Source: Candidatus Magnetocorallium paracelense (lineage in GTDB: Bacteria; Nitrospirota; Thermodesulfovibrionia; Thermodesulfovibrionales; Magnetobacteriaceae). Taken from it: a stretch of 33,348 nucleotides of DNA. Positions 1,474 to 25,792 of this stretch are shown piece by piece. Every line of letters starts with the position of its first letter. Within the stretch, counting starts at the first letter, position 1. The notes below the pieces were generated by a model that saw only the letters and a list, made by a program, of their open reading frames with translations, did no database searches and was not told the DNA's origin. A program made the position numbers and the translations under genes. The DNA is taken from contig JAREWP010000008.1 of the NCBI GenBank assembly GCA_029001845.1, positions 1 to 33,348 of the forward strand, read 5' to 3'.

Positions 1474-1500
1474 ATGCAAAACACAAAATATGATAATTAA
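1474..1500 (+). other. Eight-codon micro-ORF duplicating the next start site
   Basis: ATGCAAAACACAAA at 1474 is repeated at 1511, where it opens the large downstream gene. The upstream copy has its own AGGAG at 1459-1463 and reads MQNTKYDN-stop, ending 10 bases before the real start codon. It is either a short tandem duplication of a translation start or a leader ORF. There is no evidence of function beyond the ribosome-site arrangement. Confidence 0.4.
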
Positions 1501-1510
1501 GGGGGATGAA

Positions 1511-4500
1511 ATGCAAAACACAAACATTTCCGGTAAGTCATGTAATATTAAAAAGAGAGAAGAATTCTTGTTTAAATTTTTGTTGTGTCATCTGATTCTA
1601 TTGTTTATTTTTATTTGCCACATGAAAGTTGCGACAGCCATGGAACATGAAAGGGATCGAACAGGTATTGAATACAAGACGAGTAGTTTTGGCGGGGAGT
1701 GCGATGCTGTTCAATTCGGGCATCATAAAGACAGCCAAATTATTTTCGCTAAATATCCACTCGATTTATCGGGCGCGTATGAGGGCTTAACCTTTTGGTT
1801 TGAGGTTACTTCAGGAGCATCCCCGGAAAATTTCGAACCTATTTTCACCCCGCCTCAAAAACTCAGTTTGAATTTAACGGAAATGGTACGTGGGTATGAG
1901 GAATCTTTTGATGCGACTTACCCCTATGTGGAACAACACTACACAGGGACATTCCATTTTCCTCTTTTAATGTGGGATTATTGCAGCGAAACGGATGACG
2001 ATGCAAGCTCTTCTTACTACAGAAATGAAACAAAAAGCTACACCCATGAATTACCCGTTGAAGTGAAGCTCTGGTGGTACTACTGTTCCGATAGCGGTGT
2101 TTGGATTCTCCATCACGATTCCTGGATCAAGGATACGACATTGGAATATATATATGACGAAGAAGACAATCTGACCCCCACCTTTACGCTTGCCGGAGAA
2201 AGCGAATGCTTCGATAATATTTATATGGAATATTACGCTCAGAGCGACGATGGTTCTCTCTATGGCGATAACATAGAGTTTAGTGATGATTGTTCCATAA
2301 AATACACCTACTATGATGCAAGAGAGTACTGTGAAATACAAGGAGGTGTTTATGTCTGTAATAAGCAAGACAAGCTCGAAGAGGTTCTCCCGATACCTGC
2401 TTACCTGGGAAACGGGTGCTTATCTTTAAACGTTACCAATAAAACGGTTAATAACGATTTGCCCCAATACTACGATTACTACTCTTATACCTACGATTCC
2501 GTAAACAATGAGGAAGGCGACTGGGAGTCTACCAAATGCCCTGACCCTCCGATGCTGCTTTGTGTTAATCCGGGACGTGACTGGAAAGTTGGAGACAACG
2601 AATACCATACCGATGATTCCTATTTTTTTTCCAGAAATGTGATCGACGGCACAGTTTACGACACATATATCGACGATCAGGAAAATACCGTCAAGACTCT
2701 GATGCGGGGGATCCCCATGTTCAATGTAAGGTCATCCGAGATACCTGATTTAGAAGGCTATATCAAAGGCAGGTTATATTCAAGAGAAGATATATATACG
2801 GAAGAGAATATAATGGAAGATTTGAAAGATAACGACATACATAAGGCCTATGCAGAGTTGTACAGACTTAAAGACGGCTATCTAAGAAGTCAATACGACG
2901 ATGAATCCGATGACGATTACAAGGCGTTTGTCAATTCTCAATTGGAATCCACAGGAATCGTAGCTAAGATAACCCCTAACGATTATGGCGAATTTTCATT
3001 CGAAAATATTCCATATGATGAGTTTGCGACAGAGGGCAGAATTACAACTTATAAGCGTATTTATTATACTGTCAGGATTACAAGGGCCCGGTCGGAGGAG
3101 GTGAAAATCAGTTCTCCTGATTATGATGTTCTTAATCCGAATATCGATGAAGTGGGGACCAGTACAATATACTTTTATAATTCTGACAAACACAATCTGA
3201 GGGCCTCCCTGTATGAGGAAAACAAAGAAGAGACTGTGCACTCTATATACCTTGATCGGGCCGATGATATTGCCTGGAAGCTGGCGATAGCAAAGGATTT
3301 ACAAAAATTTTCAAAAAATTATAGTGAAGAGGAAACCAAAGTGCTGGCCTACCTTGAGACACTTCTTGAAGATACGGATGAATTAACGCCTGAAAAGGTC
3401 GAAGGTGTTAAAAGAGCATTTTGGGCCGAGAAAGTAGTTCTTGATTCCGCCCAAATTTCAAAAATTTTGTTAAAAATAGTGATTGATTCACTTGCTAAAA
3501 TTATCACAGACTTCTGGTCAGACTTTTCAATCAAAAAAGATAAGATGCTGTCCGACCAACTGGACAGATTACAAAATCTTCGTAATGCAAAGGCTTTGCA
3601 GCAAAATGCCGATAAAATTGATGATATAAAAGAGGCCATCCAGAAGATTTATAAAGAAACCGGCGGTGCAAATGCAATGACTTCCGAAATGGTTAGCATG
3701 ATCAGGCAAACCTTCAATGTTTTAATGGCGACGATTGAGCAGCATTTTAAAGATAAGAAGGCTGCTGACGAGGATACGAAAAAAGCGATAGATGCTTTTA
3801 GCGCGACCTTTAGAACTATTTTAGAGACCCTGGAAAATATCTCTCTTACCGGAGCCCTGAAGACCCCTGTAAGCGAGGCCATTAAATTTGGCGCATCTAA
3901 GGCGCACGGTGAGGCATTTGACTCAAGTCTCGAACTGGGTTACTCATATTGTGAGATCACCGACGACCTGCTCGACAGCTCTTATACCTATATGCAGGCA
4001 TGGAACAGCGAGGATGACAATGTGTACAGAAAGGACATTGATAAAGTTACGGATATGCTCTCTCTTATATACGATGAACATACAGAGGTTCAAGTTATGG
4101 ACGATTATTCAAAAGAGTTCGCCACAGCCTTTGGCACGGCTGAAGATATATTTGGTATGTTATCTACTACTGGAATCCCCTGGTTTAAATATGCGGAAAA
4201 GTTCTCCCAAATTATGGAATATGCCTTAACAGGAATAAATGGAAACCATGCCGCCTGGACCGTTTTTATAACGCTTCCCGACTTGACGGACAAAGGAGTG
4301 TGCTATGCATATGGCAAAAAGGAAACTTGTAACGAAGAGACTTCTACCGCAAACAGCTATTCGCTCGCTGCAAAAGGGGAGACTCTCTTCAGCACAGGTT
4401 TGCTATCCGATATAGAAGCATCCAGGGATTCGTTAAACCTTGCTTTGGATCAGTTGACAGGAAATCTGAATGACAATAATGTCGCAAATGCGTTGATAAC

Positions 4501-5920
4501 CTTTAGCGGCGTATCCAATAACAGTTTTGTAAGCAGTTTTGATGATTTTAATGTAAAGGTTTCTCGTCTATTGAGTCAGGCCGCAGCCGCAGCGGGAGGT
4601 AATAATTTTGCCGAGAACCTGACTTACAGCAACATCAGAAGTGTGTCGCTTATAGCCTACTACTATGGATTGCTGGAATCAAGCTTTGATTTGTATTACA
4701 AAGTTGCAATGGAGGAATACGACGGTTTCGATGACCCTCTGTATTTAGCGGAACGTAACGACCTTCTGTATCATTTGAATTACTTCAAAACATCGGTTAC
4801 AGTGTTATTTGCATACCTGGAGGAGCTCTCCAATGAAATGGGAGATATCTCTGCCTATCCCGCTGTCCTTGTGGAAAATATTTCCGTCATATCCGATATA
4901 ACCGGCAATGACACTGTCACCAAATCGCCTGAAGATTTCACAATCAATGCCCGTATAAAGAATATCAGCCCATCTACAATATCGGATTTAACGGCAAAGT
5001 TGAATATAATCACCTCCTATGATATATCCGATACAGGAGAGATGGTTTATGGAGAAAGCGCTTTTATTGCAACCACTCCTTTGGAGGCGATCATAGGAAA
5101 CGGGTATCTCGCACCTGACGACAGAGTGGATAACTCAGGAGAGGATGAAGCGAATGTCTCTTGGAGGCTGCAATACAACGGCTACTTTTCAATGGAAGAT
5201 AATGTTGTACTGCAAATAGAGATACTGGAAGGCGGAGAAACTCCCTCTACCTTTTACACTGAGCAGGAGTCGATTATAATGAGTATGGATCACAAACTGC
5301 TCGATAAGGACCTTGACGGCATTCCCGATGACTATGAAGTTTTATATGGCATGGACACAGCAAGAGACGACTCCCTGGATGACATCGACGGCGACGGCCT
5401 TCCAAATAAACAGGAATATGTCCTGGAAACGAGGCCGGATGTAACGGACACCGATTACGACGGATTATCGGACAGAGAAGAGGTGACAGGAGGAACTGAC
5501 GGCTATATAACCGATCCGCTTGAAGCCGATACAGACGGCGATGAAGTTCCGGACAATATTGACGGCAATCCGATTGACGGAGGGACAAGCGAATATGGAG
5601 AAAAGCCTGAAGAACCTGTAATCGAGTTAGATAAGACCGAGGTAATTCTCACAAAGAGCGAAAGCTCTGCAATGGTTACGGTTTCCAATTCAGGAGCAGG
5701 AACTCTGGTCTGGACTGCGCTCTCCGATAACGAGGCCGTTGCTAAGACAATGCCCTCTTTTCCTTCTCTGCACAGTAAAGACGGAACACTGTTTATTATG
5801 ACGCCCCATGACTATGATTTCGAAGCTTCCGGTACAACTCAGTCAACAGTGAAGGTAATCGACGCCGGCGGCAATACAAAGGAATATAAGAAAATAACAG
5901 TAAAGGTAATAGGCCAATAG
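1511..5920 (+). CDS. Large secreted protein with C-terminal calcium-binding TSP3-type repeats
   Basis: This encodes 1469 aa from ATG 1511, chosen because AAGGGGG (1499-1505) sits 5 bases upstream; an in-frame ATG at 1490 lacks such a site. Residues about 20-45 form a signal peptide (LLCHLILLFIFICHMKVATA). The N-terminal half is acidic and Tyr-rich with scattered Cys. The middle (about 640-790) is helical, probably coiled coil. Residues about 1265-1360 carry DxDxDG motifs (DKDLDGIPDDYE, DIDGDGLPNKQE, DTDYDGLSDREE, DTDGDEVPDNID), the signature of thrombospondin type 3 / EF-hand-like calcium-binding repeats. The last ~100 residues resemble a BACON/Ig-like beta-sandwich (LDKTEVILTKSESSAMVTVS). 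It is probably exported to the periplasm or cell surface. I recognise no family for the first 1200 residues. It is followed by another secreted-protein gene at 6037. Confidence 0.85.
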   Translation: MQNTNISGKSCNIKKREEFLFKFLLCHLILLFIFICHMKVATAMEHERDRTGIEYKTSSFGGECDAVQFGHHKDSQIIFAKYPLDLSGAYEGLTFWFEVTSGASPENFEPIFTPPQKLSLNLTEMVRGYEESFDATYPYVEQHYTGTFHFPLLMWDYCSETDDDASSSYYRNETKSYTHELPVEVKLWWYYCSDSGVWILHHDSWIKDTTLEYIYDEEDNLTPTFTLAGESECFDNIYMEYYAQSDDGSLYGDNIEFSDDCSIKYTYYDAREYCEIQGGVYVCNKQDKLEEVLPIPAYLGNGCLSLNVTNKTVNNDLPQYYDYYSYTYDSVNNEEGDWESTKCPDPPMLLCVNPGRDWKVGDNEYHTDDSYFFSRNVIDGTVYDTYIDDQENTVKTLMRGIPMFNVRSSEIPDLEGYIKGRLYSREDIYTEENIMEDLKDNDIHKAYAELYRLKDGYLRSQYDDESDDDYKAFVNSQLESTGIVAKITPNDYGEFSFENIPYDEFATEGRITTYKRIYYTVRITRARSEEVKISSPDYDVLNPNIDEVGTSTIYFYNSDKHNLRASLYEENKEETVHSIYLDRADDIAWKLAIAKDLQKFSKNYSEEETKVLAYLETLLEDTDELTPEKVEGVKRAFWAEKVVLDSAQISKILLKIVIDSLAKIITDFWSDFSIKKDKMLSDQLDRLQNLRNAKALQQNADKIDDIKEAIQKIYKETGGANAMTSEMVSMIRQTFNVLMATIEQHFKDKKAADEDTKKAIDAFSATFRTILETLENISLTGALKTPVSEAIKFGASKAHGEAFDSSLELGYSYCEITDDLLDSSYTYMQAWNSEDDNVYRKDIDKVTDMLSLIYDEHTEVQVMDDYSKEFATAFGTAEDIFGMLSTTGIPWFKYAEKFSQIMEYALTGINGNHAAWTVFITLPDLTDKGVCYAYGKKETCNEETSTANSYSLAAKGETLFSTGLLSDIEASRDSLNLALDQLTGNLNDNNVANALITFSGVSNNSFVSSFDDFNVKVSRLLSQAAAAAGGNNFAENLTYSNIRSVSLIAYYYGLLESSFDLYYKVAMEEYDGFDDPLYLAERNDLLYHLNYFKTSVTVLFAYLEELSNEMGDISAYPAVLVENISVISDITGNDTVTKSPEDFTINARIKNISPSTISDLTAKLNIITSYDISDTGEMVYGESAFIATTPLEAIIGNGYLAPDDRVDNSGEDEANVSWRLQYNGYFSMEDNVVLQIEILEGGETPSTFYTEQESIIMSMDHKLLDKDLDGIPDDYEVLYGMDTARDDSLDDIDGDGLPNKQEYVLETRPDVTDTDYDGLSDREEVTGGTDGYITDPLEADTDGDEVPDNIDGNPIDGGTSEYGEKPEEPVIELDKTEVILTKSESSAMVTVSNSGAGTLVWTALSDNEAVAKTMPSFPSLHSKDGTLFIMTPHDYDFEASGTTQSTVKVIDAGGNTKEYKKITVKVIGQ

Positions 5921-17313: not shown

Positions 17314-19368
17314 ATGTTTGAAGGAAGAAAAATAAAAAAACTTTTATCAGAGCTGATTAAGTCTTATAACGAATCAGATTCCTTGAGGATCATGGAAGAG
17401 CTCTCCGAGTTCGGGAAAACAGCCATGCCCATCGTCGTCAGATCAATAAGATCGAGAGAACTTAATTCGGTAAAAGGTATGAAACTCGTTGAAAAGATCC
17501 TAAACGAATATGATATTTCAGACCTTCTCCCCCTTACTGCCGATGAATTCGATATCGTCAGAGGACTTGCAAAAAAAATAACAGTAACAAAATGGAAAGA
17601 AGAGGCGATACCGAAACTCCTTGAAAACCTTCAGCACAAAGACGCCTTTATCAGAGCCAGTGCAACGGAGATATTGACTGAAATGAGGAACCAGTCGACA
17701 GTACTGAAGCTTGTCTCTCTGTTTAACGAAAACGACATCGAACTCAAGAAAAACATTATAAAAATTTTAAGCGCAACCGGCGGACAGGTAGCAACCAAGC
17801 TCTTGATAACCGCATTAAAGGAGAAAGACAGGTCCATCAGATTCCAGGCCGTGCGGGGACTAAGCAAAATGAAAGACCCTTCCAGCGTAGAGCCTATTAT
17901 AGAAATACTCAATGACGATGACGTCCAGATAAAAAAATGCGCCCTCGATACATTGTGGGCCATAGGAGACAGTCAGGCAGCTATTGCCATTGTACCCCAT
18001 CTTAATGACAAAGATCTCCTTGTACGTCAGAAAGCAGTGGACTGTATAATAAAGATCGGTGATTCTTCGATAGTCTCGCAAATCTACCATCTTCTCAAAG
18101 ACCCCGATGTGAATGTCAGGCGCTGTACCGTAGAGATACTCAATAATCTGAACGATCCCAGAACAGGAGAAGAACTTATTAAAGTAATGAAGGATTCCGA
18201 CTGGTGGGTGCGGCAGCGTGCAACAGATGCACTGGCAGAGTTAAAGGGCAGCAATGTAGTTAAGTATATCATCGTCATGCTCAACGAATCGGACGAAGCC
18301 ATGAGACGCTGTGCTGTGGAATTTTTTAATAAAGTATCCGATCCCTCATCATTTGAACCACTGGTCCAGGCCCTTAAAGATGACGACTGGTGGGTGAGGG
18401 AAAAGGCGATTACAGCTCTGGGTAAACTAAAAGATCCCCGCGCTCTGGAACCACTTATGTCCATGATGGGCGATGAAGAAATCAAATGGGTGCTTCCTTC
18501 AGCATTTGCCGATATTGGTGGCGAAAAAGCCATTGAGGAGATCGGGAAACTGCTTAAAGACAGTCAGAAACTGGTTCGCCTGGAGTCTTTAAAAGCAATA
18601 GAAAAATTAAAAGAGCTTTCTCTTGTCGATGATATAAAGGATTTGCTCAACGATTGCGATGATGAGGTTTGTAATGCCGCAATAAAAGTTCTTAAAGAAG
18701 TCACCGGAAAGACCTTCCAACCGGAGGAGGAGTCCCCTAAGGCCACGCAGCCTCTTGATAAGATGATGGGTTCGGTTTTTCCCGAAGGCTCAATACTGAC
18801 AGAAGCCATTGTGGTTGTCGATCTCTGTAATTCGACCGGCATAGCCAACAAATACGGAGACCAGTTCGCTCTGAACTTGACTAAAATATTAACGGACGCA
18901 GTACGCTCCATAATAGATAAAGAAGGTTTTCAGTTTATGAAGAGCACGGGGGACGGATTTCTTATTACTTTTACTACAATAGAAATCGCAATAAGATTCT
19001 CTCTCACCCTTACAAATATAATAGGGAAGTACAACCAGACAGCAGACAAAAGATCGGTTATCGATCTGAGATTTGCAATAAACCTTGGAGAAACACGAAT
19101 CGATGCAAAGGGAGACAGGCTGGGAGTCGCAGTTAACATGACTTTCAGGGTCGAAGGCGTTAAGCCCGACGATATGATAGAGATCGAGGGCGGGATTAAA
19201 AAGGAGCAAATGCCTGTTGTCAACAGAATTCTCGTAACCGAAAATGTCGCTGAAGAAGTCAGAAAATATAATAATATCAGTGTAACGCTGCTGGGTCTCT
19301 TTGAATTGAAGGGAATTACAGGTCTGCATCGGGTTTTCGAACTTAAGACAGCTTCAAAGGAGGGGTAG
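17314..19368 (+). CDS. HEAT-repeat protein fused to class III nucleotidyl cyclase
   Basis: This encodes 684 aa with no signal peptide or membrane segment, so it is cytosolic. Residues about 1-470 are roughly a dozen HEAT/PBS-lyase-type helical repeats (for example DPSSVEPIIEILNDDDVQIK and DPRALEPLMSMMGDEE), including two near-identical SDWWVRQRATDALAELK / DDWWVREKAITALGKLK units. Residues about 490-680 are a class III adenylate/guanylate cyclase domain. The two metal Asp residues are D503 (VVVDLCNST) and D547 (KSTGDGF), 44 apart. K543, GDRLG and the VNMTFR Asn/Arg pair are present, so the domain looks catalytically competent. The HEAT array probably senses or binds a protein partner. The cyclic-nucleotide-binding protein begins 5 bases downstream. 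cAMP versus cGMP cannot be decided from the sequence. Confidence 0.9.
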   Translation: MFEGRKIKKLLSELIKSYNESDSLRIMEELSEFGKTAMPIVVRSIRSRELNSVKGMKLVEKILNEYDISDLLPLTADEFDIVRGLAKKITVTKWKEEAIPKLLENLQHKDAFIRASATEILTEMRNQSTVLKLVSLFNENDIELKKNIIKILSATGGQVATKLLITALKEKDRSIRFQAVRGLSKMKDPSSVEPIIEILNDDDVQIKKCALDTLWAIGDSQAAIAIVPHLNDKDLLVRQKAVDCIIKIGDSSIVSQIYHLLKDPDVNVRRCTVEILNNLNDPRTGEELIKVMKDSDWWVRQRATDALAELKGSNVVKYIIVMLNESDEAMRRCAVEFFNKVSDPSSFEPLVQALKDDDWWVREKAITALGKLKDPRALEPLMSMMGDEEIKWVLPSAFADIGGEKAIEEIGKLLKDSQKLVRLESLKAIEKLKELSLVDDIKDLLNDCDDEVCNAAIKVLKEVTGKTFQPEEESPKATQPLDKMMGSVFPEGSILTEAIVVVDLCNSTGIANKYGDQFALNLTKILTDAVRSIIDKEGFQFMKSTGDGFLITFTTIEIAIRFSLTLTNIIGKYNQTADKRSVIDLRFAINLGETRIDAKGDRLGVAVNMTFRVEGVKPDDMIEIEGGIKKEQMPVVNRILVTENVAEEVRKYNNISVTLLGLFELKGITGLHRVFELKTASKEG

Positions 19369-19373
19369 ACGTA

Positions 19374-19835
19374 ATGGAGGATATAAATTATTCCAGAGTA
19401 AAAAATATCCTGAAGGAGATTCCTTTTTTCGAGGATTTCAATGAAGAAGATCTCGATTATCTTTCAGGCCAACTGAGTCTCAGATCGTTTGGCGACGGAA
19501 CAGAGCTTTTTAAGAAAGGAGATATAGGAGATTATCTTTTTTTTATTGTTGAGGGAAACGTTAAGATACAACTGGAATCTCCTTTTTATAAAAGTATCTA
19601 TGCCACAGTGGGAAGAGGCAACAGTATCGGGGAGATGTCTCTGATAGATGAGTTTCCCAGGTCAGCGACTATCGTGGTTACCGAATCGGCGGAACTGTTA
19701 ATACTGACAAAAAACCGTTTTGAATCCATAAATGAAGAAAACCCGGCAGTTGGGATTAAATTGTTAAAGGGGCTGGCCAGGAGTCTTAGTAAGAGAATAA
19801 GAGGACTTTCAGGCAGATTCGCCGATCTGGCTTAA
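19374..19835 (+). CDS. Stand-alone cyclic-nucleotide-binding domain protein
   Basis: This encodes 153 aa. GGAGGGG (19360-19366), overlapping the end of the cyclase gene, supplies the ribosome site. The cyclic-nucleotide-binding fold runs from FFEDFNEEDLDYLSG to the C-terminal helix. The phosphate-binding cassette (GEMSLIDEFPRSATI, residues 86-100) is intact, with E87 and R96, the residues that bind the ribose and phosphate of cAMP/cGMP. There is no DNA-binding helix-turn-helix as in Crp, nor any kinase or channel domain. It therefore looks like a regulatory subunit that acts through protein contact. Its stop codon overlaps that of the convergent minus-strand operon. Confidence 0.9.
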   Translation: MEDINYSRVKNILKEIPFFEDFNEEDLDYLSGQLSLRSFGDGTELFKKGDIGDYLFFIVEGNVKIQLESPFYKSIYATVGRGNSIGEMSLIDEFPRSATIVVTESAELLILTKNRFESINEENPAVGIKLLKGLARSLSKRIRGLSGRFADLA

Positions 19836-21646
19836 CGATATTTCTCTATAACTCTGTTTTTCTGCTTTCCCCCTTTCGATGCGACGGAATCAATGTGTCG
19901 TATATCGATCTTTCCAAGATTCAGACCTTTCCTTGTCACAAAAATTCTTGACACTCCGGAACTCTTCCCGAAAAGATACTCATAAGGTATCGACTCACCA
20001 GGCTCAATACGAATCTTCCCTTCTTTGTGAGACGATGAAGAAAGAAAAATCATTACCCCCCTATTATCTTGTACATTGGTTTTTACATCTACGACTTCTA
20101 ACCTGTCATGGGTGCTTATCGTTATTACTTCATCTTTTGAATACCACCTCTTCCCGCCTATATTCTGATTGAAAACAATATACTCCATTTCAGGCTCCTC
20201 TATCTCCACAACCAGGCTCCCTATAAGACGATCGTTTTCCGTTACGGTGATTTTATATTTCATACCTCTTTTATCGGTTGAGTATTTTACCCATAGATCT
20301 TCAGCCGTATTGATAAGAGCCCCCCTGTCTTCTCCGTTATTATTTAATACATCGGAGACGAACCCTACAAAATTCACCTTTACATCTCTGCCGTCGATTC
20401 CGTCCGACAAGGCTTCCACAAGTTTAATCGTATCGCCCCTTACAACGCTCAGGTGTTCGTTGTTTTGCAGCACTCTTCTTATACCGTTTACCTCTACGAT
20501 AAGATATTTGAATCTCTTTTCAACCTGTTTTACACTTGGTTGAATACCTCTTGCTCCTGTTGCAGAAAAACGGACCTCTCCACATTTAAAATTATCCTTT
20601 CTTACGATCGCCTTAACAGATGAGTGAATCGTAAATTCTCTGCCTATATCGTTTGCAGTACCCAGGCCGATTAAATCAAGACTGAGACCGCGTTTATAGT
20701 TGGCCTCCACACCGGTAACAGAAACTCTGTCACCTTTCTTTACATCAAGAGTATCACCGTTGTTCAGCAGGATCGACGAATCATTGAGAGAAACAATGAC
20801 ATATTTTAATTCAGGAGGATCGAGAGCTATTTTAGGGCTCTCCGGTATGATGTCAAACTCATTGAGAAAGGAATTTACAACAAGGGTTTGATATCTCACT
20901 TTACCCTTGATATCTTTTATCTCTTTTGACGTCTCTATGCCAAAACTCGGCATATGGTGCCTGGAGAGAGCGAAAAAAGTAGCCGACCCTCTTTGCTCAG
21001 GGTGTTTTGTATTATTGGCGAATGTATTATGGTTGCTGAACTTGAAGTGGTGATCTCTGTTTGCAATACTCCTGTTCGCTCTTTTGGCGACTCTTACAGC
21101 GATATCACCTAAAGGGATTACCTCTCCGTCAGATGTTTCGAAAACATTTGCGTCTGCGATTATTGATTGTCCGTATCTCATGGGATTAACAAGATGACTT
21201 TCCCATTTATGGGAATAGAACCCGGAACCTTCGTGAAGATTCAGCAGGAAATCGCTTTCCGATATAAGCTCTTTTAATATTTCGACAACTCTGTCTTCAT
21301 AAAAAACATTACTGTTGGCAGGGTCGAACCGCCTGTTCATATCGTCATTAATAAGTCTTTTATTTCTTATAATAGACAAAAAATTGGCTCTGGGCACAAC
21401 GATCATGTTTCCCTTCCTCAATGCCATGTCTGCATACAAATCCGCAGCAAGATAAGCACCGGGCTCGTCTCCCTGAATGCCGCCTATAATCATCAAGGTT
21501 TGTCCTTCCTCTATACCGTATATTTTATATACATGGAGTTCATAATCTGTGTTTTCGAAATAAACCAGATGTTTCGTTCCGGACAGTGCTGTAGCGGGAA
21601 GGAGAAAGAATAAAATAAAAAACAAAATTATTAAATTGATTTTCAT
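19832..21646 (-). CDS. csd4: Csd4/M99-like zinc carboxypeptidase (peptidoglycan shape enzyme)
   Basis: This encodes 604 aa. A signal peptide (LIILFFILFFLLPATALS) directs it to the periplasm. Residues about 28-265 are an M14-type carboxypeptidase fold. The zinc motif is GGIQGDEPG: Gln58 replaces the usual His, with Glu61 and His138 (NLHEGSGFYS), while Glu238 (GIETSK) is the likely catalytic base. RNKRLINDDMNRRF also fits. The Gln ligand is the reported hallmark of Helicobacter pylori Csd4, a D,L-carboxypeptidase that trims peptidoglycan tripeptides and is needed for helical shape. Residues about 275-595 contain three tandem beta-domains, each opening with a K/EYxIVxLN-like strand and a GDxLxVxxGD-type turn. 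This is longer than Csd4 (~440 aa). It is the last gene of a six-gene operon and overlaps the preceding gene by 4 bases (ATGA). Confidence 0.82.
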   Translation of the reverse strand: MKINLIILFFILFFLLPATALSGTKHLVYFENTDYELHVYKIYGIEEGQTLMIIGGIQGDEPGAYLAADLYADMALRKGNMIVVPRANFLSIIRNKRLINDDMNRRFDPANSNVFYEDRVVEILKELISESDFLLNLHEGSGFYSHKWESHLVNPMRYGQSIIADANVFETSDGEVIPLGDIAVRVAKRANRSIANRDHHFKFSNHNTFANNTKHPEQRGSATFFALSRHHMPSFGIETSKEIKDIKGKVRYQTLVVNSFLNEFDIIPESPKIALDPPELKYVIVSLNDSSILLNNGDTLDVKKGDRVSVTGVEANYKRGLSLDLIGLGTANDIGREFTIHSSVKAIVRKDNFKCGEVRFSATGARGIQPSVKQVEKRFKYLIVEVNGIRRVLQNNEHLSVVRGDTIKLVEALSDGIDGRDVKVNFVGFVSDVLNNNGEDRGALINTAEDLWVKYSTDKRGMKYKITVTENDRLIGSLVVEIEEPEMEYIVFNQNIGGKRWYSKDEVITISTHDRLEVVDVKTNVQDNRGVMIFLSSSSHKEGKIRIEPGESIPYEYLFGKSSGVSRIFVTRKGLNLGKIDIRHIDSVASKGGKQKNRVIEKYR

Positions 21647-22479
21647 GATAAAGCCCGCTCCATATCAATTTCCTTCTTTATAACGACTTTACCCTTATCA
21701 TCGTACACAAAGATAAAAATCTCCTCTATCGTTTCGACTTTGTCAGTGATTGTCATTGTAAAAGGCCGTCTGTACTTAATAATAAAGTTATCTCCCCGTT
21801 TATAATTAAGAGGAAGACCGTTCATAATGCCCACTGTTTTCGGATAAGTATTATATCGCCCTCCGGCTCTCCATATCAGAATGACATAACCACTTGCCTT
21901 TTCCCGATCTGCAATATTTTTTGCAACATTGAAACGCACTTTCACTCCTCTGTCTCCAGAGAGTTTTTCGGCCACCAGGTTTTCAATAATGACAGCCTGA
22001 TGGTTCGCATACTCAACTTTGGACTCTGATGAAAGCCCGGCAGTACTGCTGAATGAGGGTTCGTCCAGGTGCTCATTGGGAGTACTCGATTTCGAATTGC
22101 CGGCAGAGAAGAACTTTGCCTTTGTCGTCAGTTGAGGGATTTTATCGTCTGCTCTCTCTTCATTCTTTTCAGCGGGAAAAGAGTCTTCAGAAGTTTCTAT
22201 CCCCTCTTGAATGACTGTCAGCATGTGACGATTTTCAGCACCGAGCAATTGCATTTCAAGAGCCTTTTTCTCTGTAGAAAGGGCCAGCAGATCTTCCTTT
22301 AATGTCATATTCTCATAATAGTATTTCGACGTAAAAAAGCCGAATCCCCCTGAGCACAGAATCAGCATAAAAAAAGTAAGCACCAAAAGAGACAATGATC
22401 TCGAAGTCGTGGTTAATGTACGGACTTTCCCTGTTCTGTTTTTAAAATAGATAAATGTAATCATCTTGTGATTTTTCAT
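21643..22479 (-). CDS. Single-pass membrane protein with coiled coil and C-terminal beta domain, unknown family
   Basis: This encodes 278 aa. A short cytoplasmic basic N-terminus (about 1-27) precedes one membrane segment (SLLVLTFFMLILCSGGFGFF, residues about 30-49). Next come a short coiled coil (about 56-85), a Ser/Glu-rich linker (about 95-155) and a folded beta-rich domain (about 165-278; GVKVRFNVAKNIADREKASG, RYNTYPKTVGIMNGLPLNY). The arrangement predicts a periplasmic domain tethered to the inner membrane. I do not recognise the family. It overlaps the Csd4-like gene by 4 bases and follows the L,D-transpeptidase gene by 27 bases, so it is almost certainly part of the same machine. It could be a scaffold comparable in role to Csd5 or Csd7, but sequence similarity to these is not evident by eye. 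No clear ribosome site is seen. Confidence 0.85.
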   Translation of the reverse strand: MKNHKMITFIYFKNRTGKVRTLTTTSRSLSLLVLTFFMLILCSGGFGFFTSKYYYENMTLKEDLLALSTEKKALEMQLLGAENRHMLTVIQEGIETSEDSFPAEKNEERADDKIPQLTTKAKFFSAGNSKSSTPNEHLDEPSFSSTAGLSSESKVEYANHQAVIIENLVAEKLSGDRGVKVRFNVAKNIADREKASGYVILIWRAGGRYNTYPKTVGIMNGLPLNYKRGDNFIIKYRRPFTMTITDKVETIEEIFIFVYDDKGKVVIKKEIDMERALS

Positions 22480-22506
22480 AGAATAATTGAGGAAAGCAGA
22501 GGGAAG

Positions 22507-23616
22507 TTACAGACCTGAGGCTCCGGAATCGGATTTGTTTTCTTCTGAAGCAGTAAGTCTTTCAGAGTCCCCCTTCCGGGTCGGCAGCGATTTCTTTTTC
22601 ATCACCATGGCCTTTTTTCTCATTAAATTGGCTGTCGCAATAACCCTGGAATTTTTAACAGGTAATCCTACCCACTCTTCTCCGAATATCTTCCATTTAC
22701 CGGCTTCATCAACAAGATATAGCCTCTTCAGGCCGGAGTCCTCATACAAATCGCTCCTGTAGTTTTGCAGGAATGAGACAACAGTATATTCATCGAACTT
22801 AATAATCTTGATATCGCTCGTCTTTACAACTATTTCATCGTACGTGTCGTTAAGACCCATTTTATATTCCTTCCATGCATGAATATCCATACCTCTTGAA
22901 TAAAAGCTCTTTGAATAAGCCGATACATATGTATCAATATCCTTTCCTGTCCATGCCTTTCTCCATAGTTCCAGGAGGGCAAGTATTTTTTTACGTTCAG
23001 AATCGAGTTTGTCTTTCGTTGTGTACCTGATATCGGCTACGATAATTAAAGGGGTCGATTGAAGATCGACGTATTTCGCTATTTCAAGCATATCGTTGTT
23101 TAAGGCGACGACACAACCTCTTGTATCATAAGGTTTAAGAAGCCTGTCAGGAGTATTTGTAGCATGAAGCCATATGCCTTTACCGTTTTTATTAACAGCT
23201 CTGTCTGCAAGGTTCGGATAATTGGTAGTCAGAGCCATGACGCCATACTCCGGCAGGAGGTCTTTCTCTTCCATAATATCCGAAAAAAAATATACTCCTT
23301 CAGGTGTCTTTTTATCTCCGCTTACCATCTTATCTCCCGACTTCTTTCCTGTAGTAACATTAAAGAGGCTTTTCTTTCTGTATTTGTCATCATATACATA
23401 CAGCGTTTGTGACGACTTTTCGACGATCAAAGCAAAACCGTTATTATCGCCAAGTTTTATAAAAGTATCGGGCAGCAAAGAATAATATGATTTGGATTTC
23501 TCATTTTCCAAAGCACTCAAATCCTTTGTAAACAGAATGACAACAAAGAAAATAAAAAGAGCCACACAAAAAAACGTATGTAATTTCTTTGTAATTTTTA
23601 CAATTTTACTTGTCAT
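22507..23616 (-). CDS. L,D-transpeptidase-fold protein with NTF2-like C-terminus (Csd6-like)
   Basis: This encodes 369 aa. An N-terminal membrane anchor or signal (FFCVALFIFFVVILF) leads into a YkuD domain (about 58-198). It has FALIVEKSSQTLYVY, KKTPEGVYFFSD, catalytic-site His151 (GIWLHATN) and nucleophile Cys168 (YDTRGCVVALN). Residues about 208-318 (ILALLELWRKAWTGKDIDTY ... YLVDEAGKWKIFGEEW) form an NTF2/SnoaL-like domain. This YkuD-plus-NTF2 order is that of Helicobacter pylori Csd6, which acts as an L,D-carboxypeptidase on tetrapeptides, the step before Csd4. True crosslinking L,D-transpeptidase activity is the alternative. The start overlaps the end of the second bactofilin gene by 11 bases. 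The C-terminus is a short basic, Ser-rich tail. Confidence 0.85.
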   Translation of the reverse strand: MTSKIVKITKKLHTFFCVALFIFFVVILFTKDLSALENEKSKSYYSLLPDTFIKLGDNNGFALIVEKSSQTLYVYDDKYRKKSLFNVTTGKKSGDKMVSGDKKTPEGVYFFSDIMEEKDLLPEYGVMALTTNYPNLADRAVNKNGKGIWLHATNTPDRLLKPYDTRGCVVALNNDMLEIAKYVDLQSTPLIIVADIRYTTKDKLDSERKKILALLELWRKAWTGKDIDTYVSAYSKSFYSRGMDIHAWKEYKMGLNDTYDEIVVKTSDIKIIKFDEYTVVSFLQNYRSDLYEDSGLKRLYLVDEAGKWKIFGEEWVGLPVKNSRVIATANLMRKKAMVMKKKSLPTRKGDSERLTASEENKSDSGASGL

Positions 23617-23947
23617 TGTTCGACTCGCTCATTTCGCATTTTCCCTCAAAAACAGTACCTTCGCCTATCAGGAGGTCTTTTGTTTTAATATCTCCGTAAA
23701 CTTTACCGGCGCCGATCAGCTCAACTTTTGTAGAGGCTTCTATCATACCGCGCACCAGACCGGATATAACGGCAATATCCACCTTAATAGTAGATTCGAC
23801 CAAACCGTTTTCTCCGATAATAAGCATACCCTTTGCATCTATATCTCCGGTAAACTTGCCATCTATTCTTACAATACCCTCAAAAGACAGCGTTCCGCTT
23901 AATCGGGCGTCTTCATGTATATACCCGCTTATATCCCCCGGTTTCAT
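23606..23947 (-). CDS. Bactofilin (second, short)
   Basis: This encodes 113 aa, a bactofilin (DUF583) beta-helix with short tails. The typical rungs LSFEGIVRIDGKFTGDIDAK, GMLIIGENGLVESTIKV and GKVYGDIKTKDLLIGEGTVF are visible. Bactofilins polymerise without nucleotide into filaments that position cell-wall enzymes; CcmA is the member required for helical shape in Helicobacter. It begins 3 bases after the first bactofilin gene ends. The two proteins are clearly diverged, so they could copolymerise. Confidence 0.92.
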   Translation of the reverse strand: MKPGDISGYIHEDARLSGTLSFEGIVRIDGKFTGDIDAKGMLIIGENGLVESTIKVDIAVISGLVRGMIEASTKVELIGAGKVYGDIKTKDLLIGEGTVFEGKCEMSESNNDK

Positions 23948-23950
23948 TTG

Positions 23951-24376
23951 TTACCCGCCCTGAGGCGAAATCGCTCCTTCATTGATCATCGTCATTGTAT
24001 TTTCTACAGAGACGGTTACATCATCTGAAGACTTTTCCCTCAGCTCCCTCTCCATAATGGCCGTGCCTTCAAGTATTCCGCCTTCAAGGACAATCAGTTT
24101 AAGTGCGCTGATACTTCCAAAGACCCTGCCTTTTGTGTTTATCTCAATAGAATCGGAAGCATTAATCATTCCTTTAACGGTTCCTCCTATCAGAACCGAT
24201 TGAGCATGAATATTACCCTCAAATGCACCCTTTTCGCCAAGTATGACTCTATCGGCCCGAACATCGCCTTCAAAGCGACCGTCTATTCTCAGGGTCCCCT
24301 TTGTGTCGATCTCACCTTTCACTGCAGAATCGACTCCCACAAAGGATTCTATTATAGTAGATTTTCTAGTACTCAC
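23951..24376 (-). CDS. Bactofilin (first, longer)
   Basis: This encodes 141 aa from GTG 24376, or 146 aa from TTG 24391; neither has a strong ribosome site and both overlap the end of the M23 gene, implying translational coupling. The core (GTLRIDGRFEGDVRADRVIL, GAFEGNIHAQSVLIGGTVKG, GRVFGSISALKLIVLEGGIL) is a standard bactofilin beta-helix. The N-terminal tail is basic and Ser/Thr-rich, as in membrane-associating bactofilins. A C-terminal tail of about 40 residues is absent from the second copy. It is a likely scaffold for the M23 peptidase next door, a pairing well known for bactofilin loci. Confidence 0.9.
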   Translation of the reverse strand: MSTRKSTIIESFVGVDSAVKGEIDTKGTLRIDGRFEGDVRADRVILGEKGAFEGNIHAQSVLIGGTVKGMINASDSIEINTKGRVFGSISALKLIVLEGGILEGTAIMERELREKSSDDVTVSVENTMTMINEGAISPQGG

Positions 24377-25247
24377 CCTTTTGCTTTTCAAGAAAAGGCC
24401 GGGGATTGACAGCCCTCTTATCTATCCAGACCTCATAATGCACATGAGGCCCGGTTGTATTTCCCGTGGAACCGACATATCCTATGATATCGCCTCTCTT
24501 TACTTTGCCGCCAACTTTTGCATTTAGCTTTTTATTATGGGCGTAACAGGTTGTAAAACCGAAACCGTGCTCAAGAACGACCAGCTTACCGCTGCCTCCA
24601 CCCCAGCCGGAAAAGCTGACAATACCATCGGCAGTCGCTTTTATCGGAGTACCCGGCCAGGCAGCTATATCGACACCTGAATGAAAATTTCTCTTCCCCG
24701 ACTTCGGATGTTTTCTCCACCCGAAACTGGAACTCTCATAACCCTCTATAACAGGCGACCCCATCGGCGTAGCAAAATAGATGTCCCGCTCCTGTCTGAG
24801 ATAATCCTTTATGCCGCCCACATTGTCAATGGCTTTCTCGATCTGCTTCTTAACCGAATCCATATCCAGGGAGCCAAGATCCGACACGTCGAGAGAATCA
24901 AAAATATCCTCCTTCGTTTCAAGCGAAAAGAGCTGTTTAAACTCGGTTTCCGCTTTTTTCAATGAATTGATTGTTGCATTTAAATTCATAAACTGATTGT
25001 GATGAAAATCCAGTTTATCCTTTGCCTCATTGTATTTTCTTGTTGTAATTTCGATAGTCTCTTTATATTCCCTGGTTGTTATTCTCACTGAAATAATGTA
25101 AGCAGAGTAAGAAAACCAGGCGATAACGAAAAGCAGGATTATCGGTATCGGAAGTTTTAGAGAGACAGGCTTCTTTTCGTTATGAGGGATGAGTAAAATG
25201 GTAATAGGTGTGAAAATACGAGATAAGATTCGTTTTATTCTATCCAT
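24366..25247 (-). CDS. Membrane-anchored M23 (LytM) peptidoglycan endopeptidase
   Basis: This encodes 293 aa. A cytoplasmic basic N-terminus and one membrane segment (IPIILLFVIAWFSYSAYIIS, residues about 34-53) are followed by a coiled coil (about 57-110). The LytM domain (about 168-285) keeps the zinc and catalytic residues: His189 and Asp193 (HSGVDIA), His237 (CYAHN) and His268/His270 (GPHVHYEV). It should cleave stem-peptide crosslinks in the periplasm, like Csd1/Csd3. It is the first gene of the operon, directly behind the promoter at 25298-25326. The start at 25247 has no clear Shine-Dalgarno. Confidence 0.92.
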   Translation of the reverse strand: MDRIKRILSRIFTPITILLIPHNEKKPVSLKLPIPIILLFVIAWFSYSAYIISVRITTREYKETIEITTRKYNEAKDKLDFHHNQFMNLNATINSLKKAETEFKQLFSLETKEDIFDSLDVSDLGSLDMDSVKKQIEKAIDNVGGIKDYLRQERDIYFATPMGSPVIEGYESSSFGWRKHPKSGKRNFHSGVDIAAWPGTPIKATADGIVSFSGWGGGSGKLVVLEHGFGFTTCYAHNKKLNAKVGGKVKRGDIIGYVGSTGNTTGPHVHYEVWIDKRAVNPRPFLEKQKGEY

Positions 25248-25297
25248 ATTCTATTGATTGTGCAATTCAGAAGCTGATCTGTATTTTATCGCGTAAT

Positions 25298-25326
25298 ACT
25301 ATAACATATAAAAGCTAACCAGTCAA
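25298..25326 (-). promoter_or_regulatory. Sigma-70 promoter of the cell-shape operon
   Basis: On the minus strand, TTGACT (25326-25321), a 17-bp spacer and TATAGT (25303-25298) form a near-consensus housekeeping promoter. The expected start is near 25291, giving a leader of about 44 bases before the M23 start codon. No other promoter of this quality was seen within the six genes. Confidence 0.75.
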
Positions 25327-25445: not shown

Positions 25446-25792
25446 TTAGTCGCTTATAAATGAAATTGTGCGCAAAAAAGCACCGATATTTTTGATTACC
25501 ACTGTTTAAGCTGCTATTGATAAGGATTTTGAGCATTTAGAAATGTGCTCTGACTTTTCAGCGAAAGCTGCTAAAGCAGCAATTATTCTTTTACTCCCTC
25601 TCCCCCATTGAAGGGGGAGAGGGTTGGGGTGAGGGAGCGCGGTATGGTGCTCGATACGATTACGTTTCTCCACCGTCACCCCTCACCTTAGTCCTCTCCC
25701 CTCAAGGGGAGAGAAGACTTGAAGGGAATTTCTTCGAAATTCCCAGACGTTAAATCAAACCTTTTTGGTTCCGGCTGTGCCGGGTTAGGTGT
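25446..25792 (+). repeat. Family A repeat, full-length copy
   Basis: It matches the element at 1-329 from TTAGTCGCTTATAAATGAAA through CCGGGTTAGGTGT with scattered substitutions. Together with the copy at 1, it defines a unit of about 340 bp. It lies between the promoter of the cell-shape operon and the AmmeMemoRadiSam gene and contains no credible gene. Confidence 0.85.

Follow-up and report, generated by a model that had tools for sequence, protein, structure and literature searches.

Six adjacent open reading frames (ORFs) on the minus strand of a 33,348-nucleotide stretch of the Candidatus (Ca.) Magnetocorallium paracelense genome (contig JAREWP010000008.1, positions 1 to 33,348; the whole stretch is referred to as the window) form a cassette at 19832-25247. 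We consider it quite likely that the six genes constitute one module for local peptidoglycan editing, setting cell curvature or some other departure from the plain rod. They encode an M23 peptidase, two bactofilins, a YkuD + NTF2-like protein, a single-pass membrane protein (here called MemX) and a Peptidase_M99 protein. Observed directly are the gene content, the catalytic residues, the linkage of the genes, the presence or absence of the block within one family, the similar N-terminal module of MemX and M23 proteins, and the fusion of a MemX domain with YkuD. The pairing of M23 protein and bactofilin is already known; the full six-part assembly at a single locus, together with MemX, is apparently new. 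No description of the assembly or of MemX was found in the open PMC papers, and the same literature, when searched for Deltaproteobacteria or Desulfo- species in which Csd4/M99 and bactofilin genes cluster, gave nothing.

Wall enzymes and bactofilins of the cassette

A first-pass annotation of the window, made from the letters alone, had named the six genes and given their overlaps as 26 or 11, 11 and 4 bases. The ORFs are indeed present at matching minus-strand coordinates, Pfam profiles agree with the identities (MemX belonging to no family), and the overlaps are confirmed. The M23 and bactofilin 1 genes overlap by 26 bases from a TTG start at 24391, or by 11 from a possible alternative GTG start 15 bases in; a gap of 3 bases separates the two bactofilin genes, bactofilin 2 and YkuD overlap by 11 bases, a gap of 27 lies between YkuD and MemX, and MemX and M99 overlap by 4.

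The M23 protein (24366..25247, minus strand; PF01551, 3e-34) is a putative endopeptidase of LmdC/Csd1-like type. Its catalytic LytM domain has H189xxxD193 and H268xH270 intact, and the catalytic residues are invariant among relatives sharing 49-59% identity with it. In the predicted build, which is of low confidence, an N-terminal helix precedes a cytoplasmic beta-hairpin; a membrane helix/coiled coil follows and leads to the LytM domain, the AlphaFold2 (AF2) model placing the hairpin at 14-19/28-33 and the helix at 34-106. The protein has the features of the LmdC type, being bitopic, having HxxxD/HxH intact and being encoded next to a bactofilin gene. In LmdC, the cytoplasmic beta-hairpin is required for binding to bactofilin and for the recruitment of LmdC by it (PMC10945521). 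The BacA-LmdC pair of Hyphomonas neptunium and Rhodospirillum rubrum described there is closely similar, consisting of a bitopic M23 protein with cytoplasmic beta-hairpin (in the cassette a predicted one) and an overlapping bactofilin gene, whereas the cassette also has another bactofilin, two probable carboxypeptidases and, in MemX, a protein whose N-terminal module appears to be of the same kind. Bactofilin 1 (23951..24391, minus strand; 146 residues from the TTG start; PF04519, 3e-23) and bactofilin 2 (23606..23947, minus strand; 113 residues; PF04519, 3.9e-26) both contain the beta-helix domain of their family.

The YkuD protein (22507..23616, minus strand) is composed of a YkuD domain (PF03734, 3e-18), with catalytic H151 and C168 present, followed by an NTF2-like Cds6_C domain (PF24125, 7e-23). 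In profile comparison its best solved relative is Bd1075 of Bdellovibrio (7o21; 180 bits), ahead of Pgp2 (100 bits, alignment from chain residue 11) and Csd6 (88 bits, from chain residue 67). Csd6 and Pgp2 in the strict sense are marked by an N-terminal dimerisation domain, and it is at these residues that the two alignments begin. The H-A pair and C-V-V of Bd1075 are both present in the protein, and so is its Trp in the C-terminal NTF2 extension, W315 aligning with Bd1075 W303 (EEW). Judged by these similarities, it is a probable LD-carboxypeptidase of the Bd1075/Csd6/Pgp2 type. Bd1075 is an LD-carboxypeptidase required for curvature, and its NTF2 domain, W303 included, targets it to the convex face of the cell (PMC8938487). 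In Bdellovibrio the bd1075 gene is monocistronic, whereas the YkuD gene here lies inside a bactofilin operon.

On its sequence, the last gene (19832..21646, minus strand; PF17033, 1.9e-28) encodes a putative D,L-carboxypeptidase of the Peptidase_M99 family (Csd4/Pgp1-like). The Csd4 type is marked by a QxxE...H metal motif and a catalytic Glu instead of HxxE...H (PMC4220969). Profile alignment with the Csd4 structures 4q6m/4wck (2.6e-43) places the metal motif in register, so that ligands Q58, E61 and H138 and the general base E238 correspond to Csd4 Q46, E49, H128 and E222; QxxE is kept in 85 of 87 relatives, and HxxE occurs in none. A reading of the gene as AstE/AspA desuccinylase is ruled out by the motif and by the Pfam scores, 33 bits for AstE_AspA_cat compared to 100.1 bits for Peptidase_M99 (cut-off 27), and the initial choice of M99 over AstE therefore stands. 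Motif and catalytic Glu liken the protein to Csd4 of H. pylori and Pgp1 of C. jejuni; unlike these, it is longer (604 residues), having an extra C-terminal region.

MemX as a candidate link between scaffold and enzymes

A Pfam scan of MemX (21643..22479, minus strand) and ten orthologues gave no convincing family. The AF2 model, built with 11 orthologues, predicts a hairpin (6-12/19-25), a long helix (26-91) with membrane segment and coiled coil, a disordered linker and then a confident beta-sandwich (163-278). The sandwich has an Ig-like fold, the best Z in a search of PDB folds being 10.9 over 94 residues (root-mean-square deviation 2.5); matches in that search were generic Ig-like or beta-sandwich structures, and one clear relative was not found. 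Neither MemX nor the orthologues matched an SH3 family in Pfam; weak or absent matches are compatible with kinship, and the model is Ig-like. Orthologues occur in ten other family members and in many metagenome-assembled genomes (MAGs) of other phyla, and the N-terminal pattern hThhhh..GKh.sh is kept across phyla together with the membrane helix.

A MemX profile (32 rows) run over 296 Nitrospirota genomes gave six strong matches (E<1e-40), all in M99 carriers. The 24 next-best matches fetched comprised 17 M23 peptidases, whose alignments begin at profile position 12-22 and run through the hairpin, membrane helix and coil; the remaining seven aligned from position 36 or later only. In six loci (L067, L068, L069, L070, L072 and L032), the YkuD-NTF2 protein ends in a fused copy of the Ig-like domain (E 1.6e-22 to 4.9e-28), and in L068 and L069 a separate MemX was not detected. 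With an N-terminal module like that of M23 bactofilin clients at one end and a domain found fused to a carboxypeptidase at the other, MemX probably ties scaffold and wall enzymes together. The wider proposal is that MemX founds a family of bactofilin adaptors, in which an LmdC-type hairpin would dock and the periplasmic Ig-like domain would hold LD-/DL-carboxypeptidases, in a cassette self-contained for shape and spread among Thermodesulfobacteriota, Nitrospirota and other phyla; we regard this proposal as evenly balanced. By functional analogy, MemX may be likened to Csd5 and Csd7 of H. pylori, non-enzymatic membrane proteins that join bactofilin to periplasmic enzymes or wall. The likeness proposed is one of function; Csd5 has an SH3 domain, whereas the domain of MemX is predicted to be Ig-like.

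Linkage, gain and loss across genomes

The window's genome (6.0 Mb, 103 contigs) is the sole member of its genus in the searched set, which includes as further members of the family Magnetobacteriaceae (Nitrospirota; PMC9376291) Ca. Magnetobacterium casense MYR-1 (G007 = L084), MYbinv3, nDJH13bin3 and nDJH6bin1. M99 is present in 12 of the 19 Magnetobacteriaceae genomes, the window's own included, and the arrangement M23-bactofilin-(bactofilin)-(YkuD)-MemX-M99 occurs on one strand in 11 of these 12. Only in the window and L032 does the YkuD gene of a family carrier lie within the operon; in the other family members a YkuD-Cds6_C protein, which for the most part has two NTF2 domains, is encoded at another site, in G008 for example at a distance of 1.56 Mb. 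Loci from across phyla were the best 80 of 165, drawn with M99 peptides alone, and some repeat family members, so that the counts express linkage and not prevalence. In the 58 loci with enough flank on both sides, the neighbours of M99 include YkuD in 47, MemX in 42 and a bactofilin in 34, all three in 24, and an M23 gene in 8; a 4-base overlap is the commonest MemX/M99 junction. The usual order in Thermodesulfobacteriota, YkuD-MemX-M99-bactofilin, is found in many MAGs of that phylum and of "Deltaproteobacteria" and in some of other phyla. Because the clustering recurs in related genomes as well as in other phyla, it is not due to chance, and the conserved co-localisation anticipated at the outset is borne out. 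The first-pass annotation had also proposed that gene order follows the order of reactions. This was abandoned because gene orders differ among relatives, which place bactofilin or M23 3' of M99, and because most family members have their YkuD gene apart from the operon.

The seven family genomes lacking M99 all belong to one genus, g4. No bactofilin and no M23 orthologue was found in the g4 genomes G003 and G009 (99-100% complete), G012 (91%) and G015 (84%), the best M23 match in those examined reaching 91 bits compared to 508-524 in carriers; the MemX profile, surveyed in two of them, gave zero matches in G003 and a weak match only in G009. A separate YkuD-Cds6_C protein is retained in g4. 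The joint absence of M23, bactofilins, MemX and M99 indicates that the block comes and goes as a unit there; G006, which has M99 alone, is the exception. The nearest kin of MYbin6 (L071) is g4 (63-68% on tRNA nucleotidyltransferase, at most 50% elsewhere), yet MYbin6 carries the cassette. Within the 296 Nitrospirota genomes, M99 exceeds the Pfam cut-off in 10, all in two families. A quick, midpoint-rooted M99 tree groups the window with its own family and GWC2_42_11-like "Deltaproteobacteria" (17 rows, SH-aLRT 99) and puts the second Nitrospirota family on a distant branch. The two branches would fit separate acquisitions or, alternatively, loss, and the suggested movement of the cassette between lineages is consistent with this patchy spread.

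Regarding the surroundings of the cassette, the putative sigma-70-type promoter 5' of the M23 gene (25298..25326, minus strand; TTGACT-17-TATAGT, TG before the second hexamer, 10/12) exists as annotated, but its rating as a good promoter did not survive. The same consensus scan found 22 promoter-like sites in the region and 15.0 +/- 4.4 in shuffles, about chance density, so the site counts as a consensus match only and was dropped as evidence. An Rfam scan of the window gave zero matches. A gene for a cyclic-nucleotide (cNMP)-binding protein (19374-19835) shares 4 bases with the M99 gene at the stop, the two lying tail-to-tail, and adjoins the gene (17314-19368) of a 684-residue protein with at least nine HEAT repeats, after which an adenylate/guanylate cyclase domain is weakly matched. 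In genus g3 (L022, L026, L027, L028) the M23 gene has a cNMP-binding gene directly 5' of it and in the same orientation, a position that hints at a cyclic-nucleotide tie to the cassette. Many CCCTCTCCCC/GGGGAGAGG inverted motifs, with the look of a dispersed repeat, fill the intergenic 25570-25730, 5' of the cassette. Farther off, a 1476-residue ORF (1490-5920) with no Pfam match at 1e-5 is followed by beta-propeller and beta-helix proteins, and the region is possibly a surface protein locus.

Cell shape, competing explanations and proposed mechanism

Among the carriers, Desulfocarbo indianensis (L083) is vibrio-shaped (PMC4559730); for Desulfobotulus alkaliphilus, no description of shape was found in the open literature. 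Within the family, Ca. Magnetobacterium are rods, Magnetomonas (the clade of nDJH6bin1) are vibrios and the Ca. Magnetominusculus clade, with MYbin6 in it, is ovoid (PMC9376291). The occurrence of the block in rod and vibrioid genera and its absence from most of the probably ovoid genus is suggestive, the comparison comprising three genera only and the identity of g4 being inferred. Several observations weigh against a curvature module. The rod-shaped Ca. Magnetobacterium (L084) and MYbin6 of the ovoid clade (PMC9376291) both have the cassette. Bactofilin is not detected in some M99-MemX loci, and the family member G006 (L030, G006:C36) has M99 in a genome that yielded neither bactofilin nor M23 orthologue nor MemX, so M99 may be able to work alone. 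In the M99 protein, M99_C (PF17129), the Ig-like C-terminus of the three-domain Csd4/Pgp1 build, is matched at 15.5 bits, under the cut-off of 27. As for the module shared by MemX and the M23 protein, the 25-residue hairpin alone gives no clear separation between M23 proteins and background, their ranks spanning 9-866 of 977, hhalign of MemX with M23 N-termini gave a probability of 23% on sequences that are short for significance, and the M23 structure prediction is poor (mean predicted local distance difference test score 66). The hairpin comparison being weak, the claim of a shared module leans on hairpin, membrane helix and coil together and on the predicted structures.

The rod-shaped carrier would also suit a bactofilin-organised wall editing that is not specific to curvature and instead serves division, polar growth, appendage placement or rod width, with the hydrolases used for turnover. 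Bactofilins act elsewhere in motility and chromosome segregation (PMC4627819, PMC5703909), and the window's genome encodes MreB and contains six M23 matches besides the one in the cassette. M99 and Bd1075/Csd6-type proteins are, however, characterised as determinants of curvature or helix, the Bd1075-type W315 is present, and the vibrioid Desulfocarbo and Magnetomonas clade carry the set (PMC4559730, PMC9376291); taken together, we hold this explanation to be rather unlikely. That the genes are a chance operon of general wall enzymes having no shared function is scarcely credible. The genome does contain bactofilin matches on two other contigs besides the other M23 genes, and G006 has M99 alone, but the linkage recurs across phyla in differing gene orders, the block is missing in g4, and MemX and YkuD domains are found fused.

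The first-pass annotation had described the cassette as a helical machine. The Csd1-7/CcmA system of H. pylori (PMC9448923) offers the same set of an M23 peptidase, bactofilin, M99 (Csd4), YkuD-NTF2 protein (Csd6) and single-pass membrane linker (cf. Csd5/Csd7). Identity of enzyme families and the patchy distribution in Nitrospirota would be expected if a true Csd/CcmA system had moved from Campylobacterota as a unit. This appears very improbable, because the YkuD protein is nearer to Bd1075 than to Csd6, no SH3 or other Pfam domain was detected in MemX, Campylobacterota are absent among the titles of the best 80 M99 relatives, and the gene order differs, the genes here forming one operon. The helical label was given up as unsupported: the closest YkuD relative serves vibrioid curvature, and the carriers of known shape include vibrios and rods.

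For the favoured module of local wall editing, we infer enzyme activities, docking and an effect on shape as follows. A bactofilin filament would recruit the M23 protein and MemX via their N-terminal cytoplasmic beta-hairpins, located just before the membrane helices. On the periplasmic side, cross-links would be opened by the M23 enzyme; trimming of tetra- to tripeptides would fall to the YkuD-NTF2 protein, and further shortening to dipeptides to M99. With its periplasmic Ig-like domain, MemX would keep the YkuD enzyme, and possibly M99 as well, at the strip of wall that bactofilin marks, and the uneven relaxation of the wall would bend the cell.

Lastly, the cassette bears on the question raised by Helicobacter of how a cytoplasmic bactofilin and periplasmic trimming enzymes cooperate, in which the small MemX physically fits the missing link. 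With all parts in one cassette, which at least one sulfate reducer of vibrioid shape in culture also has, the question becomes directly testable. For many lineages known only without cultivation, magnetotactic bacteria included, the cassette is, moreover, a candidate genomic marker of non-rod shape.

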